This document shows, piece after piece, positions 3,254 through 10,003 of a stretch of DNA of 57,397 nt (the first letter of the stretch is position 1; every line of letters starts with the position of its first letter). Origin of the DNA: Acidimicrobiales bacterium. Lineage in GTDB: Bacteria; Actinomycetota; Acidimicrobiia; Acidimicrobiales; VFJN01. The DNA lies in the NCBI GenBank assembly GCA_030681555.1, contig JAUXRW010000004.1, forward strand, positions 1-57,397, in the 5' to 3' direction. A program made the position numbers and the translations under genes. Under the pieces are notes generated by a model. It was not told the origin of the DNA. It searched no databases and saw only the letters and a list, made by a program, of their open reading frames with translations.

Positions 3254-3838
3254 GTGGGATCAGATCATCCAACCGAGTCGGAGCTGAGACAGGGCGGGTT
3301 CGAGCCGGTTCTCGTCGAGAACGATCGATACGACGGCCCCCGCTCCGGAATCGCCCTGGTCGGCGGCGAGGTTCACTACTTCCACAATGGCGATGGTCGA
3401 GATGTTGACGACTGCGAGTACCTGGTTTGGCCCGCAGATCCGGAGGCAGCGCGCATGGAGGTAGAGCGCTGGCAGATCTTCGTGGCGTTTGACGCTCGCC
3501 GGGAGGCGGGCGAGGTCGGCGACGAGGGCCACCCGGGCCATGGCGGGGTCAATGCTCGCTATGACGCGCTCTCGGATCTGTTAGGGCCGAGGCGGGTGCC
3601 TCCCTCAGACGCACGGCGGATGCATGCGGAGTGGCGCTGGCTAGATCGTGATTACTACATAGCCGAAGGCCCCCCGTACATGGCGGAGGCCGCTCAGTCG
3701 ATACATCCAGCGCCGTTGATGAGCGCTCACGAGCCTGGCAGCGATCGGACCTGTCGCGCCAACCTCACAGGAGGCAGCGAACCGTTCACTCGGCGGGCAC
3801 CGGGGGTTCACCCGTCCGTGGGCACGCTGTGGCGGTGA
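3254..3838 (+). CDS. Conserved-looking hypothetical protein
   Basis: I do not recognise the family. The GTG at 3254 is preceded by GGGAGGT, a good ribosome site with short spacing, and gives 194 residues. The frame is open upstream into the IS, but that stretch looks non-coding. The protein is soluble, acidic and rich in aromatic and histidine residues (EVHYFHNGDGRDVDDCEY, EVERWQIFVAFDARREAG, GHGGVNARYDALSDL, EWRWLDRDYY). No signal peptide or membrane helix is seen. Its stop overlaps the GTG of the next gene (GTGA at 3835-3838), which suggests translational coupling to the histidine phosphatase. The IS end lies only about 100 bp upstream and may have replaced or displaced its promoter. Confidence 0.6.
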   Translation: MGSDHPTESELRQGGFEPVLVENDRYDGPRSGIALVGGEVHYFHNGDGRDVDDCEYLVWPADPEAARMEVERWQIFVAFDARREAGEVGDEGHPGHGGVNARYDALSDLLGPRRVPPSDARRMHAEWRWLDRDYYIAEGPPYMAEAAQSIHPAPLMSAHEPGSDRTCRANLTGGSEPFTRRAPGVHPSVGTLWR

Positions 3839-4341
3839 CCCTCTGGATCGTCCGTCACGCCTGTGCAGGGCATCGCAGTGCCTGGGAGGGGCCCGACGAG
3901 GAGCGGCCCCTCGACGTTGCGGGGGTACAGCAGGCCCGGGCCCTCGCCACCCTGCTGGCTGCGCACGACCTCGATCGGCTCGTGTCGAGCCCGCACAAGC
4001 GCTGCGTCGACACGCTGGCGCCCCTCGCCGAGGCCACGGAGCTCCCGCTGGCGGTCGACGGCGCCCTCCGCCCGGGCGACGCCGCCGTAGGCGTCCTCGG
4101 CGACCTCCTCCACGACCCCGGGAGCGACGGGAGCGTCGTGTGCACCCACGGAGAGGTGATGGCCGCGCTGCTGCCCGCGCTGCGGGCCGGCTCGATCCGG
4201 GTGGTCGATGATCGATCCGACGACGCGCTGCTGCTGAAGGGAGCGGCCTGGCGCATCGACCGGAGCGCCCACCCTTGGCTGCTCGAGCTGATCGCCCCGA
4301 TCCCGCGGGACCCCTGCCCCGCGCACGCCGAGGCCGACTGA
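3835..4341 (+). CDS. Histidine phosphatase, SixA / MutT1 C-domain type
   Basis: A branch-1 histidine phosphatase of about 168 residues. The catalytic RH motif is in IVRHACAGHR, with conserved RPLDVAGVQQA, SSPHKRCVDT and the second histidine in VVCTHGEVMA. The arrangement RHA.AG...W.GPDEERPL resembles the phosphatase half of mycobacterial MutT1 (NUDIX plus histidine phosphatase). Here the NUDIX gene is separate, at 7664. I chose the GTG at 3835 because it overlaps the preceding stop as GTGA; GTG 3829 is an in-frame alternative. Likely role: removing phosphate from phosphohistidine or from nucleotide products. The substrate is inferred. Confidence 0.8.
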   Translation: MTLWIVRHACAGHRSAWEGPDEERPLDVAGVQQARALATLLAAHDLDRLVSSPHKRCVDTLAPLAEATELPLAVDGALRPGDAAVGVLGDLLHDPGSDGSVVCTHGEVMAALLPALRAGSIRVVDDRSDDALLLKGAAWRIDRSAHPWLLELIAPIPRDPCPAHAEAD

Positions 4342-4558: not shown

Positions 4559-4804
4559 ATGATCGGTGGCGCCAATGTCAAGCGCATCACGCGGGCTCTC
4601 GCGGACCTGCAGCGGGCGAAGACCGCCGTGAAGCGCCTGGATGCCGCCCGGCGCGCTCGCGAGGCGGCGGACGACCTTGAGCAGGCCCATGTGGCGGCGG
4701 CCCGGGCCGCTGGCCTGACCTGGGCGCAGATCGGCGAGGTCTACGGGCTCACGAAGCAGGGGGCACAGCAGCGGTTCCGGGGCGAGCGCACGATCACGGG
4801 GTGA
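4559..4804 (+). CDS. Small helix-turn-helix DNA-binding protein
   Basis: An 81-residue basic protein with a long charged N-terminal helix (residues 9-50, rich in Arg, Ala and Glu). A C-terminal helix-turn-helix follows (LTWAQIGEVYGLTKQGAQQRFR, about residues 53-74), resembling the sigma-70 region 4-like or homeodomain-like HTH of short actinobacterial regulators. No ligand domain is present. The ATG follows GGTGGG. The upstream half-site array (4490-4546) suggests autoregulation. It ends 7 bp from the convergent ParA gene. The role is unknown. Confidence 0.7.
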   Translation: MIGGANVKRITRALADLQRAKTAVKRLDAARRAREAADDLEQAHVAAARAAGLTWAQIGEVYGLTKQGAQQRFRGERTITG

Positions 4805-4811
4805 GCGGCCG

Positions 4812-5558
4812 TCACGCCGGCCACAGCACGGCGGCCACCTCGCCCCACGCCGCTCGGTAGCGCTGCGTCGCCGCCGACGTCGGCGCGAACACCCCGACGG
4901 GGGCCCGCTGCTCCCCCATCCGCTCCACGGCCGCGGCCGAGGGGATCGCCGTCGGGAGGAGCTGGGGCCAGGTGCGCCGCAGATCCTCGGTGAGATCACG
5001 GTGCAGCTTCCGCCGCTGGTCGACCATCGAGAGGAGCGGGAGCACGCCCACCGGGAGCTGCTCGTCGCGGAGGAACGTCGTGAGCTGGGCGAGGGTGCGG
5101 CTGGCCAGCGTCGCCGGCACGACGGGGACGAGCAGGTGGTCCGCCGCGCCGAAGACGCTCTCGCTGGCCAGCGAGATGCTCGGCGGGCAGTCCAGCAGGA
5201 CGAGGTCGTAGCTCCGCTCCACCGGCTCGAGCAGCCTGGCCAGGCGCTCCGTGGGGCGCTTCGTCCGCTCCAGGTGGACATCGAGGTGGCGCAGGGAGAA
5301 GTCGGCCGGCACGACGTGCACGGGCGAGAGATCCGAGCCGCGGATGTGGGCAGCGAGCTCGCCATCGGCGCCCACCAGGCGCTTGCTGCCCCCGCGCACC
5401 TTCGGCTTCACGCGGAAGAGGTAGGTGGCGGCGCCTTGGGGGTCGAGGTCCCAGACCAGCACGCGGGCGCCGGTGCGGGCGGCCTCGAACGCCAGGTTGA
5501 CGGCGGTGCTCGTCTTCCCGACCCCGCCCTTGATGCTGTAGGTGGCGACGACCTTCAT
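4812..5558 (-). CDS. Orphan ParA/MinD-type ATPase
   Basis: 248 residues. It has the deviant Walker A KGGVGKTS (residues 10-17), the switch region DLDPQGAATYLF and Walker B DLVLLDCPPSI, so it is a ParA-superfamily ATPase expected to dimerise on nucleoid DNA. It is shorter than chromosomal ParA and lacks an N-terminal HTH, resembling cargo-positioning ParAs (McdA, PpfA type). No ParB gene or parS-like cluster is visible. The ATG at 5558 overlaps the stop of the CYTH-CHAD gene (ATGA), so the two are translationally coupled. The obvious inference is that the CHAD protein, or the polyphosphate it binds, is the cargo. Confidence 0.85.
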   Translation of the reverse strand: MKVVATYSIKGGVGKTSTAVNLAFEAARTGARVLVWDLDPQGAATYLFRVKPKVRGGSKRLVGADGELAAHIRGSDLSPVHVVPADFSLRHLDVHLERTKRPTERLARLLEPVERSYDLVLLDCPPSISLASESVFGAADHLLVPVVPATLASRTLAQLTTFLRDEQLPVGVLPLLSMVDQRRKLHRDLTEDLRRTWPQLLPTAIPSAAAVERMGEQRAPVGVFAPTSAATQRYRAAWGEVAAVLWPA

Positions 5559-7099
5559 CGCTGGGCCAGCGGGGCGAGGAGGTCGTCGAGCGCACGGCGG
5601 TTGGGCTTGGTGTCGTAGGCGGCGAACCGGTCGGCGAACGCCGCCCGCTCCGAGCTGCGGCGGCGATCCAGCTGCTCGCCGAGCCGGCCGATCGCCAGGA
5701 GCACGTCCGTGTCGACGCCCGGCGCATCGCGGAGGTCGTGGGCGAGCGTGCGCAGCTGCGCCATCTGCACCTCGGCGTCCTGGTGCTCGCCGAGGTTGTC
5801 CTGCAGCGCCTTGAGCTGGCCGACGAAGGCCTTCCGCCCCTTGGTCGGCAGCAGGCCCCCGAAGCACTCCAGCAGGTAGCGCAGCTTCTTGGCGTCCTTC
5901 CGCAGGTCGTGCAGCCGTTCGGGGTGCGAGGCCGGGGTGATGGCCCGCCCGTCCCGCAGCACCTTCCGCTGGGCACGGGCGATGCGGGCCGCCACGACGG
6001 GGCCGATCGGCGCGGGCTGCTCGGCGACGACGTCGAGATCGGTCAGCCAGGAGCGCCACGCCTCGAAGGCGGCTGCGGTGGTCGCGCTCCGCAGTGAGCG
6101 GGCCAGCTCGGCCTTGGCCGCCACCCGGCGCCGCTCGAGCTCCTCACGCACGGCCTCCAGCGCCGTGATGTCGGCGTCGCTCAGCCCGGCGACCTGCTCC
6201 GCCCACCCGAGGACGTACACGTCGAGGTCGCGCGGTGGGCCCGTCACCTGCCCGATCTCGGAGAACACCTCCCGGAAGTGCTGGCGGGTGTCGTCGGGGA
6301 GGACGTTGCGACCCTCGGCCAGCACCGAGCGGGTGCGGCGCACTGCGACTCGCAGCTCGTGGAGGAACTCGGGGTCGGTGTCGTCCACGGTGCCCGGCAG
6401 GTTCTGCTCGATCGTCTCGTACAGGTTCAGCAGCACCCGACGGAACGAGGCGAGCGCGTCGTCGGCGGCGTCCATCGGCACCGTCGGCGAGCTCGACCGC
6501 CCGCCCAGGGGACGGCCGGTCAGCTCGGCCAGGCTGGAGGAGAGGTCGCCTCGGGCGGGCGTGAGCCCGAGCATCGCGAGCCTCGTGCCGAGGAGCTCGA
6601 CGACGTCCTCGTGGCCCACGACAGCGTGGACCTCGGCCGCCCACGCCGGCACGTGCGCCCCGATGGCGCCGTCCACCTCCAGCCGCTCGTGGACCTCCAC
6701 CGATGCAACGGCCTTGCCGCGACGGTCCAGCCGCCGGAGGACGCGGCGTTGCGAGCTGATCTCCAGCAGGGGCAGCAGGGCCCGCTCCTTGGTGACCTCG
6801 GCGATCCGCTGGCGCAACGGCCCGGCCGGCACATCGGCGGGCCAGACGGGGGCGACGTCTGCGACGGCGTGGGCCGGGGGCGAGCCGTCGCCAGACCAGA
6901 GCACGAGCGCCCGCCCCCCGTCGTCGTGCAGCTCGAGGCGCAGGCCGGCTGCGTGCAGGCGGCCGTCGAAGGTGTCGAGCACCGAACGGGAGTGCGGGCC
7001 GGCGTCGGCTCCCTCGAAGCCCATCGTCGAGAGCGCGTCGACGACGGCGGTGACCGAGCCGTCAGTGCCGGTGAACGTGGTGGGCCTGCGGACGGACAC
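5555..7099 (-). CDS. CYTH-CHAD domain protein (polyphosphate-associated)
   Basis: 514 residues. The N-terminal half (about 1-200) is a divergent CYTH triphosphate-tunnel domain with no clear EXEXK motif at its start, so it may be catalytically weak. The C-terminal half (about 215-514) is a CHAD domain with characteristic basic helices (HELRVAVRRTRSVL, HDLRKDAKKLRYLLE, LKALQDNLGEHQDAEV). CHAD proteins are known to bind polyphosphate granules. The start is set at GTG 7099, with GGAAGG five bases upstream. A longer open frame overlaps the divergent gene and is unlikely to be coding. It is coupled to ParA by ATGA. Confidence 0.85.
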   Translation of the reverse strand: MSVRRPTTFTGTDGSVTAVVDALSTMGFEGADAGPHSRSVLDTFDGRLHAAGLRLELHDDGGRALVLWSGDGSPPAHAVADVAPVWPADVPAGPLRQRIAEVTKERALLPLLEISSQRRVLRRLDRRGKAVASVEVHERLEVDGAIGAHVPAWAAEVHAVVGHEDVVELLGTRLAMLGLTPARGDLSSSLAELTGRPLGGRSSSPTVPMDAADDALASFRRVLLNLYETIEQNLPGTVDDTDPEFLHELRVAVRRTRSVLAEGRNVLPDDTRQHFREVFSEIGQVTGPPRDLDVYVLGWAEQVAGLSDADITALEAVREELERRRVAAKAELARSLRSATTAAAFEAWRSWLTDLDVVAEQPAPIGPVVAARIARAQRKVLRDGRAITPASHPERLHDLRKDAKKLRYLLECFGGLLPTKGRKAFVGQLKALQDNLGEHQDAEVQMAQLRTLAHDLRDAPGVDTDVLLAIGRLGEQLDRRRSSERAAFADRFAAYDTKPNRRALDDLLAPLAQR

Positions 7100-7121
7100 G
7101 TCGGCCTTCCATGATGGGTCG

Positions 7122-7586
7122 ATGGCTGCAGAGATCGAGCGGAAGTTCCTGGTGGTGGAGCCTCCCCCGCTGCCCGCCCGAGGGGGCGACAGGATCCGGC
7201 AAGGGTACGTGGCCCTCGACGGCGCTACCGAGGTGCGGATCCGCCGGGGGCACCGAGGCGCAACCCTGACCGTCAAAACGGGTTCGGGCCTCGCGCGCAC
7301 CGAGGTCGAGGTCCCGCTCGACGAGCAGCCCGCCGGTGAGCTGTGGGAGCTGACCGGGGGACGGCGGGTCGAGAAGACCCGTCACCGGATCTCGCTGCCC
7401 GACGGGCTCACCGCGGAGCTCGACGTCTACGAGGGTGCGCTGGCGGGCCTCCGCACCGTGGAGGTGGAGTTCGTCGACGAGGCGGCGGCCGGCCGGTTCG
7501 TCGCGCCGGCGTGGTTCGGCGAGGAGCTGACAGGGCACGAGGGGTGGTCTAACGCAGCGCTCGCCCTCCATGGGCTCCCGCGCTGA
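7122..7586 (+). CDS. Stand-alone CYTH (triphosphate tunnel) protein
   Basis: 154 residues starting MAAEIERKFLV, so the CYTH signature EXEXK is present as EIERK at residues 4-8. It continues with the expected strands (RIRQGYVAL, EVRIRRGHRGATLTVKTG, ELDVYEGALAGLRTVEVEF). The family includes inorganic triphosphatases and thiamine triphosphatases; a tripolyphosphatase role fits the polyphosphate neighbourhood but is inferred. Its ATG lies only 22 bp from the GTG of the divergent CYTH-CHAD gene, so promoters of one or both must sit inside the other's coding region. Confidence 0.85.
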   Translation: MAAEIERKFLVVEPPPLPARGGDRIRQGYVALDGATEVRIRRGHRGATLTVKTGSGLARTEVEVPLDEQPAGELWELTGGRRVEKTRHRISLPDGLTAELDVYEGALAGLRTVEVEFVDEAAAGRFVAPAWFGEELTGHEGWSNAALALHGLPR

Positions 7587-7663
7587 CGGATTCACCTCCA
7601 GTCCACCTCCCGGCCACGTCGATGCCGCTGTGGCCGGGCCCGCAGTTCGTAGGGTTGGTCACG

Positions 7664-8056
7664 ATGATCGAAGCCGCAGGTGGCGTCGTCTGGCGACGAA
7701 GCTCGAAGGGCACCCTCAAGGTGCTCCTCGTCCACCGGCCCCGCTACGACGACTGGTCGCTCCCCAAGGGGAAGCTCGAACCCGGTGAGTCCCATCGCCA
7801 GGCCGCCCTGCGGGAGGTGGAGGAGGAGACCGGCTTGCGGTGCGACGCGCAGGAGGAGCTCCTCGAGGTCCGGTATGCGGACCGCAAGGGCCGCCCGAAG
7901 CGCGTTCGGTACTGGGCCATGGAGCGCGTCGACGGGTCCTTCCAGCCGAACGACGAGGTCGACGAGATCCGCTGGGTCCCGGTCGAGGAGGTGGAGCGCC
8001 TGGTCAGCTATCCCCGGGACGCCCGGGTCGTGGCCGGGCTGCGCCAGCTCGCCTGA
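7664..8056 (+). CDS. NUDIX hydrolase, MutT1-like
   Basis: 130 residues from ATG 7664 (MIEAAGGVVWR). The NUDIX box is complete, spanning GKLEPGE, REVEEETGL at residues 36-58 in the GX5EX7REUXEEXGU pattern. The preceding WSLPKGKLE and following RYWAME resemble the NUDIX half of mycobacterial MutT1 and diadenosine-polyphosphate hydrolases. With the separate histidine phosphatase at 3835, the two MutT1 halves may be present as split genes. It is convergent with phoX, 24 bp away. Confidence 0.85.
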   Translation: MIEAAGGVVWRRSSKGTLKVLLVHRPRYDDWSLPKGKLEPGESHRQAALREVEEETGLRCDAQEELLEVRYADRKGRPKRVRYWAMERVDGSFQPNDEVDEIRWVPVEEVERLVSYPRDARVVAGLRQLA

Positions 8057-8080
8057 GCTCCGGACCCCGGGCCGGCCTCC

Positions 8081-10003
8081 TCAGGAGCCGACCGCGCCGC
8101 CGTCGTCCTTGGTGACGATGACCGTCGCCGAGCGGGGTGTCGTCAACCCGTCCTGCGGCGGCCACGTGCTGCCGCCGTTCTCGCCGGGGTGCTGGATGTT
8201 GGTGAACATCGTGCGCTGGTCGGGCGTGGTGACGACGCCCGTGCACTCGGAGCCGATGACCCCGGTGAGGAACCGGCGCAGCTCCGGGCGGCCTGCGGCG
8301 TGACGGGAACCGGGGTCGGCGGCGAGCATCTGGTTGTTGGCCCCTGACGGCTGGCGCCCGTCGGTCTGGATCCACACCCGGCCGTCCGGATCGGCCCAGA
8401 GGCCGTCGGGCGAACCGAACGCGTCCTCGGCGTCCACGCTCGAACCGTCCACGCCGGCGCCTGGCCCGGCGAGCACGAACAGGTCCCAGGTGAAGGAGGT
8501 GGCGGTGTGGTCGCCGCCGGCCTCCTCCCACCGGACGATGTGGCCCCACGGGTTCGGCTTGCGGGGGTTGGCGGCGTTGACGGTCTTGCCGCCGTCGGTG
8601 TTGTTCGTGAGCGTGAGGTACACGAGCCCGGTGACCGGGTCGACGGCGGTCCACTCGGGGCGGTCCATCGGCGTCGCCTTGACGGCGTTGGCCGCCAGAC
8701 GGGTCTTCACCAGGACGTCGCCCTGGTCGGCGAACCCGTTGGCGGCCTGCAGCGGCCCCTGCCCATGGACCAGCGGGAGCCAGATGCCGGTGCCGTCCTC
8801 GTCGAACCGGGCCACGTAGAGGGTGCCCTCGTCCAGCGGGCTGATGCCGCGGGCCCGCATCGAGGGCGCGTTGCCCGAGCTGACGAACTTGTAGACGTAC
8901 TCGTTGACCTGGTCGTCGCCGAGGTAGACCACCACGCGACCCCCGCGGCTCGTCTGGACGAAGGCCCCTTCGTGCTTGGTGCGCCCGAGGGCGGTCCGCT
9001 TCACGGGGGTGGACGTCGGGTCGAACGGATCGATCTCCACGACCCAGCCGAAGCGGTTCGGCTCGTTCGGGTCGCCCGGCGTGACGACGAAGCGCGGATC
9101 GTGCGTGGACCAGCTGTTGCGGTCTCCCCCCACGCCGTACTCCGCGTTGAGCGCCTGGTGCTCGGCGTCGTAGGCCCCGGGATCGACGCGGAAGTAGCCG
9201 TTGAAGTTCTCCTCGCACGTGAGGTAGGTGCCCCATGGCGTGTACCCGTGCGCACAGTTGTTGAAGGTGCCGAGGGGCGATCGCCCCTCCGGGTCGGCGC
9301 TCGTCCGCAGGAGACGGTGGCCCGCCGCGGGGCCAGACATCGTCATCGGCGTGTACGCGGTGATCCGCCGGTTGTAGCCGCCCCGGACCACCTCCCACTC
9401 GCCGCCGGCGGCCCGCCGGACCTCGACCACGGCGACGCCGTGGGCGTTCTGCGACTTGCGGACCATGTCGGCCGTGTACTGCGCACGGGTCGGCGCCGTG
9501 GTCGTCCCGGTGTGCAGGTAGCTCTCCTGCACAGCCTCGTGGTTCATCACCAGCAGCCCGTGCTCGCTGCCCCGCTGGCCCCGGGCGAGCGGGAAGTAGT
9601 GCATGCCGTCGTGGTCCGAGCCCATCTGCTGCGCCTGGTCCGCAGCGGTGTTGCCGCCGGGCACGAGCGGGGGCGTCCCGGGCACGTACGCCGGGTACGA
9701 CCCGAGGATGGGGGTGCCCCACGGCAGGAAGGGACGGGCCGTGTACCCCTCGGGGACCACCACCTCGTCGCCGAAGCCCGGCGGGATCGCGGCGAAGCCG
9801 AGCAGCCCCAACGAACCCTTCCCCCTCGCGGCCGAGCCGTCCCCCGCCACAGCGGAAGCCGAGGCCGAGCGACCGCCGACAAGGAACGCGGCGGCCGCAG
9901 CCAGGCCCCCGCCGAGCACCCGCCGCCGAGACACGCCCGCTGCCACATCGAGGAGGTGCGGCGCATCCACGTCGCTCGCTTCCATCAGGTCCTGTTCGAA
10001 CAT
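8081..10003 (-). CDS. phoX: PhoX-type alkaline phosphatase (DUF839), Tat-exported
   Basis: 640 residues from ATG 10003, with GGGAGG upstream. The N-terminus carries a Tat signal (SRRRVLGGG then an Ala-rich hydrophobic stretch, residues 26-50), as expected for the Ca/Fe-dependent PhoX family, which folds in the cytoplasm. Family hallmarks include HDGMHYFP, MNHEA, CEENFNGYF, RFGWVVEIDPFDP, RTKHEGA and SPDGLWADPDGRVWIQTDG. It would release inorganic phosphate from organic phosphomonoesters outside the membrane. A PhoB-like regulator gene lies directly upstream on the same strand, and a PHO-box-like triple repeat sits at 10080-10106. Confidence 0.9.
   Translation of the reverse strand: MFEQDLMEASDVDAPHLLDVAAGVSRRRVLGGGLAAAAAFLVGGRSASASAVAGDGSAARGKGSLGLLGFAAIPPGFGDEVVVPEGYTARPFLPWGTPILGSYPAYVPGTPPLVPGGNTAADQAQQMGSDHDGMHYFPLARGQRGSEHGLLVMNHEAVQESYLHTGTTTAPTRAQYTADMVRKSQNAHGVAVVEVRRAAGGEWEVVRGGYNRRITAYTPMTMSGPAAGHRLLRTSADPEGRSPLGTFNNCAHGYTPWGTYLTCEENFNGYFRVDPGAYDAEHQALNAEYGVGGDRNSWSTHDPRFVVTPGDPNEPNRFGWVVEIDPFDPTSTPVKRTALGRTKHEGAFVQTSRGGRVVVYLGDDQVNEYVYKFVSSGNAPSMRARGISPLDEGTLYVARFDEDGTGIWLPLVHGQGPLQAANGFADQGDVLVKTRLAANAVKATPMDRPEWTAVDPVTGLVYLTLTNNTDGGKTVNAANPRKPNPWGHIVRWEEAGGDHTATSFTWDLFVLAGPGAGVDGSSVDAEDAFGSPDGLWADPDGRVWIQTDGRQPSGANNQMLAADPGSRHAAGRPELRRFLTGVIGSECTGVVTTPDQRTMFTNIQHPGENGGSTWPPQDGLTTPRSATVIVTKDDGGAVGS

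Follow-up and report, generated by a model that had tools for sequence, protein, structure and literature searches.

A conserved CHAD–ParA gene pair linked to polyphosphate, a candidate system for granule positioning

Described systems and the CHAD–ParA locus

Two described groups of ParA-type ATPases come closest to the one considered here. In McdAB, a small ATPase without a helix-turn-helix (HTH) domain is encoded together with a protein of the cargo surface, the cargo being the carboxysome; in ParABS, the ATPase Soj/ParA is accompanied by ParB and parS. For polyphosphate (polyP) granules, a 2025 review lists AlgP of Pseudomonas aeruginosa (PMC9239181) as the sole positioning factor, and states that the polyP-positioning proteins of Caulobacter are unknown and that energy expenditure on positioning remains to be seen (PMC13052382). 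AlgP would share with the system proposed below the cargo and the outcome, spacing. It is of a different kind, histone-like and DNA-binding instead of an ATPase, and no homology is suggested. CHAD proteins bind polyP and localise to granules in vivo, as stated in PMC6537752 with reference to Tumlirsch and Jendrossek 2017. In CtCHAD, polyP is bound by H253, R256, R260, R296, R418, Y419 and K441 (PMC6537752). In the open-licence literature searched, no link to a ParA was described for the CHAD phosins CtCHAD, PptA and ygiF.

The gene order folD-ppk-parA-CHAD was described for Acidithiobacillus in 2019 and 2024 (PMC6416229, PMC10892726), and in the open-licence literature we found earlier reports of the adjacency for this genus only. 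Both papers treat the gene context of a single genus, describe the ParA as a plasmid or chromosome partitioning protein and propose no polyP role for it. The Acidithiobacillus genes are very likely the same pair as the one analysed here. Neither polyphosphate nor CHAD is mentioned in a survey devoted to the several ParA/MinD ATPases of Halothiobacillus (PMC10241942).

We analysed a stretch of 57,397 nt from an Acidimicrobiales bacterium (the window), in which the gene for a 514-aa CHAD protein (5555..7099, minus strand) comes first and parA (4812..5558, minus strand; 248 aa) lies directly downstream. A preliminary description had the two genes coupled by an ATGA overlap, and the coordinates, the strand and the 4-bp overlap (5555..5558, minus strand) were all verified: the CHAD stop codon TGA occupies 5557-5555 and the ParA start codon ATG 5558-5556. 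The CHAD start, likely the GTG at 7099, is uncertain; a start farther upstream would enter the divergent stand-alone CYTH gene (7122..7586, plus strand), which encodes a 154-aa protein with an E-I-E-R-K motif. The neighbourhood also includes a gene for a NUDIX hydrolase (MutT1-like part; 7622..8056, plus strand) and, near parA, one for a SixA-like histidine phosphatase (3829..4341, plus strand). An 81-aa open reading frame (ORF) at 4559-4804 (plus strand) converges on parA and gives weak helix-turn-helix-like matches only.

Features of the CHAD and ParA proteins

The window CHAD protein is a CHAD phosin in having a CHAD domain with the basic residues that bind polyP. The Pfam CHAD domain spans residues 223-450 (E 2.5e-53), and the C-terminal part of the structural model matches CtCHAD, including its polyP complex 6qva, with Z about 34. 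Within the long CHAD domain (aa 201-512; 5564..6499, minus strand), H247, R250, R254, R290, R407, Y408 and K430 align, in this order, with the seven polyP-binding residues of CtCHAD, and these positions are kept in at least 33 of 35 orthologs. The label 'CYTH-CHAD' used in the preliminary description holds by fold but not by profile: residues 1-197 (6509..7099, minus strand) match triphosphate-tunnel (TTM)/CYTH structures with Z 13-15, whereas Pfam CYTH matched neither the window protein nor any of its 34 orthologs (0/35). The EXEXK motif is missing from the first 45 residues of all 35 partner CHAD proteins, and the N-terminal TTM domain is probably not catalytic, judging from its sequence. 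Because the polyP-binding residues are kept, Pfam CYTH gives no match and EXEXK is absent, the CHAD protein is most likely a non-enzymatic polyP-binding protein. It differs from the described phosins in forming a distinct sub-clade, in its non-catalytic-looking TTM domain and in its ParA partner. Residues particular to this CHAD subfamily are F245, L246, T286, W348, K401 and F488. No disordered basic tail of the ParB type was seen at its N-terminus; the model opens directly in a folded domain.

The window ParA is a deviant Walker A ATPase of the ParA/MinD type, with the motif KGGVGKT (K10 to T16), a Walker A' aspartate and a Walker B aspartate. The signature lysine K10, the P-loop lysine K15 and the aspartates D37, D39 and D123 are invariant across 34 orthologs. 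Pfam AAA_31 (E 9e-34) was found with no additional N-terminal domain, in agreement with the earlier view of an HTH-less protein. A profile search returned no NCBIfam equivalog above its cut-off; the best weak match was BcsQ (TIGR03371, 1.7e-26, below cut-off). The AlphaFold2 model (pLDDT 92.5) compares best with ParA/Soj (TM about 0.9, range 0.89-0.91), followed by McdA (about 0.84) and BcsQ (0.75-0.80). The ParABS ATPases are thus closest in fold and sequence (8ray, 1wcv, Soj) and share the ATPase motifs, but the ParA family studied here forms a clade apart from the chromosomal ParAs (SH-aLRT 99), lacks ParB and parS, and has most DNA-contact positions changed. Identity to McdA is only about 21%. 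Bit scores in a sample of 158 Actinobacteria genomes exceeded 350 for the clearest family members, with one intermediate at 184 and the rest at or below 153.

That the window ParA has no ParB was likewise confirmed: no ParB adjoins parA, and a profile search of the genome placed its sole ParB-family match beside a different ParA on contig 56. As the only ParB adjoins another ParA, the window ParA is not the chromosomal one. At the best 80 loci of more than 500 ParA relatives found in a GTDB genome scan, there was no recurrent ParB-like neighbour and no recurrent McdB-like ORF of at least 90 aa; what recurred was CHAD and phosphate genes.

Whether such a ParA could bind DNA was considered from an alignment with 34 orthologs. 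We take K199, K227, K230 and K247 of Helicobacter pylori Soj to be its DNA-contacting lysines; K199 corresponds to R187 in the window ParA, a position that is R or K in 28 of the 34 orthologs, and basic counterparts of the other three are not conserved in the family. The family is nonetheless basic, with a median pI of 9.2 against 4.9 in control ParAs. Contacts homologous to those of HpSoj have been described, and among DNA-binding P-loop ATPases generally, residues of this kind show little conservation (PMC7229837). Because DNA-contact residues vary among known binders and the family is basic, nucleoid binding is possible for this ParA, and the same basic character means that it might contact polyP directly.

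Conservation of the pair and its genomic neighbours

The adjacency of parA and CHAD, which the preliminary description proposed to look for elsewhere, is conserved across at least five phyla and thus far from limited to one genome. Within the window's own order, 41 genomes contain 11 close ParA orthologs, all directly downstream of CHAD, so that at least 11 of the 41 have this arrangement. A twelfth pair (L049, genome G006) was counted as linked because its contig ends within the start of parA. One further genome (L038, G035) represents a true loss of ParA, retaining a CHAD gene of the partner type (697-2385) and the CYTH gene as in the window; the position of ParA is taken there by an ORF that, read by eye, resembles a Ppx/GppA-type exopolyphosphatase. 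No CHAD was found at 17 control ParA loci. The sister ParAs L019 and L020 (45% and 39% identity) have no CHAD neighbour and were set outside the family; they adjoin ORFs reading as a LOG-family protein and a phosphoglycerate mutase. Three Acidimicrobiia loci (L039, L040 and L044) carry a different CHAD subfamily clustered with NUDIX, plus SixA in L040, and no ParA, with a PPK1-like end read by eye upstream.

Among the best 80 of the more than 500 relatives, CHAD was located immediately upstream on the same strand in 56 loci and within 6 kb in three others, and 37 of the 56 linked loci have the identical 4-bp overlap. These linked loci belong to Actinomycetota, Pseudomonadota (alpha, beta and gamma), Myxococcota and Dormiibacterota; a genome sample added Acidobacteriota. 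A sample of 276 Gammaproteobacteria genomes contained 30 adjacent pairs in 29 genomes, and chance would give about 0.003 adjacencies in 40 genomes against the 29 observed. The pair was adjacent in four of the five family-bearing genomes among 158 Actinobacteria and in six of nine among 247 Acidobacteriota. One genome (G384) has two pairs (L176 and L177), and the CHAD domain of one of them has diverged strongly (E about 1e-16). Of two long open frames inspected at CHAD matches, neither was a natural CHAD–ParA fusion.

ParA and CHAD also tend to occur in the same genomes. In the Gammaproteobacteria sample, CHAD was present in 35 of 40 ParA-bearing genomes and in 54 of the 236 others (Fisher p = 4.8e-15); the respective figures were 9/9 and 136/238 for Acidobacteriota (p = 0.007), these p-values being indicative only since the genomes are related by descent. 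All five ParA genomes of the Actinobacteria sample had CHAD. Among the best 80 of the more than 500 relatives, CHAD was still encoded in 22 of the 24 genomes where the genes are separated, for example in Methylococcaceae. The five ParA-bearing gammaproteobacterial genomes without CHAD mostly hold more divergent family members. The CHADs of ParA-bearing genomes, linked or unlinked, mostly fell into one clade of 89 rows (SH-aLRT 95). Where such a genome has a second CHAD, that copy lies outside this clade, as do almost all CHADs from genomes without the ParA. In four Methylobacter loci (L070, L071, L074 and L089; about 6700-9335), a family ParA unlinked to CHAD is immediately followed by a gene for glycogen phosphorylase, and in L070 an HDOD-GGDEF signalling gene is close by.

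Genes connected with phosphate recur near the family ParAs. Within the best 80 of the more than 500 relatives, ppk1 was found at seven loci (about 0.2 expected) and SixA-type genes at nine; PstS, PstB-like, Na/Pi cotransporter and MgtE genes also recurred. In genome G362 (L171, 271-3286), ppk1 is followed 10 bp on by a family parA, and a search for CHAD at E 1e-10 found none in this genome. Paracoccus plasmids carry the order CHAD-ParA-CYTH-NUDIX and so match the window in all four gene types; their CYTH genes are 46–48% identical to the window's stand-alone CYTH. In P. marcusii pCP157_03, pstB-phoU-phoB lies just upstream. Orthologs of the stand-alone CYTH adjoin ParA in Paracoccus, Acidobacteriota and Gammaproteobacteria loci. 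A distant ParA relative (38%) of Marinobacter nauticus pMAQU02 (L184, 4501-5247) is encoded near phbB, a gene of PHB synthesis; granules of other storage compounds may be the cargo of such related ParAs.

A proposed polyphosphate-granule system and its alternatives

The tie of ParA to polyphosphate through CHAD, first put forward from the window alone, is strongly supported as a functional association by the adjacency, the co-occurrence of the unlinked genes, the shared clade of the partner CHADs and the ppk, pst and pho neighbours. Gene linkage is evidence of a shared process, not of positioning. Our main reading, to which we give a probability of roughly 0.6, is that the two proteins form a system for positioning or partitioning polyP granules with CHAD as the cargo adaptor; the comparison with McdAB and ParABS makes the positioning part plausible. 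The basic pore of CHAD would hold polyP on the granule surface, as the conserved CtCHAD residues suggest, and CHAD would take the role that ParB or McdB has elsewhere. The cell scaffold on which an ATP-bound ParA dimer sits would most likely be the nucleoid, and granule-borne CHAD would trigger ATP hydrolysis and release, so that repeated cycles would leave the granules spaced and shared between daughter cells. We infer the physical CHAD–ParA contact, the scaffold or DNA binding, the hydrolysis trigger and the positioning itself; the scaffold is the step most in doubt. A wider version, in which the pair is a widespread, unrecognised organelle-positioning system with an ATP-driven ParA gradient, a CHAD phosin as adaptor and polyP possibly influencing the ParA cycle, is evenly balanced in our view. 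Such an influence of polyP chains is conceivable because ParA is unusually basic and without most of the usual DNA contacts.

The main rival is a role of ParA in synthesis, as a local regulator or assembly factor of polyP or granule formation that gates or recruits PPK1 and CHAD at one site and leaves the granules unmoved. BcsQ is such a factor for cellulose synthase, and its profile gave the best, if weak, match to ParA. The recurrence of ppk1, which replaces CHAD directly upstream of parA in one genome, and the basic ParA family, which might itself touch polyP, fit this explanation as well. However, the fold is nearer to Soj/ParA than to BcsQ and the dominant partner is CHAD, not PPK1, and we consider a regulator a tentative alternative that falls well behind positioning.

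It is unlikely that ParA is a co-regulated passenger of a Pho-type operon that serves another cargo or chromosome segregation and does not interact with CHAD. Unlinked copies do adjoin other genes, such as glycogen phosphorylase in several Methylococcaceae, and some family members occur in genomes without CHAD. A passenger would nevertheless not be expected to keep its association with CHAD when the genes are unlinked, to have partner CHADs in a clade of their own or to keep gene order and overlap across phyla, and a chromosomal ParAB pair is present elsewhere in the genome. Very improbable is a CYTH-CHAD protein acting as a polyP-sensing adenylate cyclase or triphosphatase with ParA as its regulator. 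The cyclase part was proposed for the CYTH-CHAD protein of Acidithiobacillus (PMC6416229) and agrees with the N-terminal CYTH/TTM fold, but the partner CHADs lack both EXEXK and a Pfam CYTH match. Least credible is a plasmid or chromosome partition ParA beside CHAD by chance, as might be implied by the label 'chromosome segregation' that public records use: the survey counts and the location of the sole ParB contradict both chance adjacency and a plasmid-partition role, which we rejected, and the clade is distinct from that of chromosomal ParA.

Compared with known ParA cargo systems, there is good reason to see in the positioning reading a new adaptor, CHAD, which is unrelated to McdB, and a new cargo, the polyP granule in place of the carboxysome. 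If it is true, a mineral storage granule would be added to the cargos of ParA ATPases. The CHAD–ParA pair is a named ATP-dependent candidate for polyP positioning and is accessible to gene deletion and imaging, among others in Methylotuvimicrobium buryatense 5G (pair in L069) and Paracoccus, which are in culture; it also has a bearing on how bacteria of wastewater and the environment store phosphate. Its conservation suggests that these bacteria may use energy on a dedicated placement or sharing of polyP granules.
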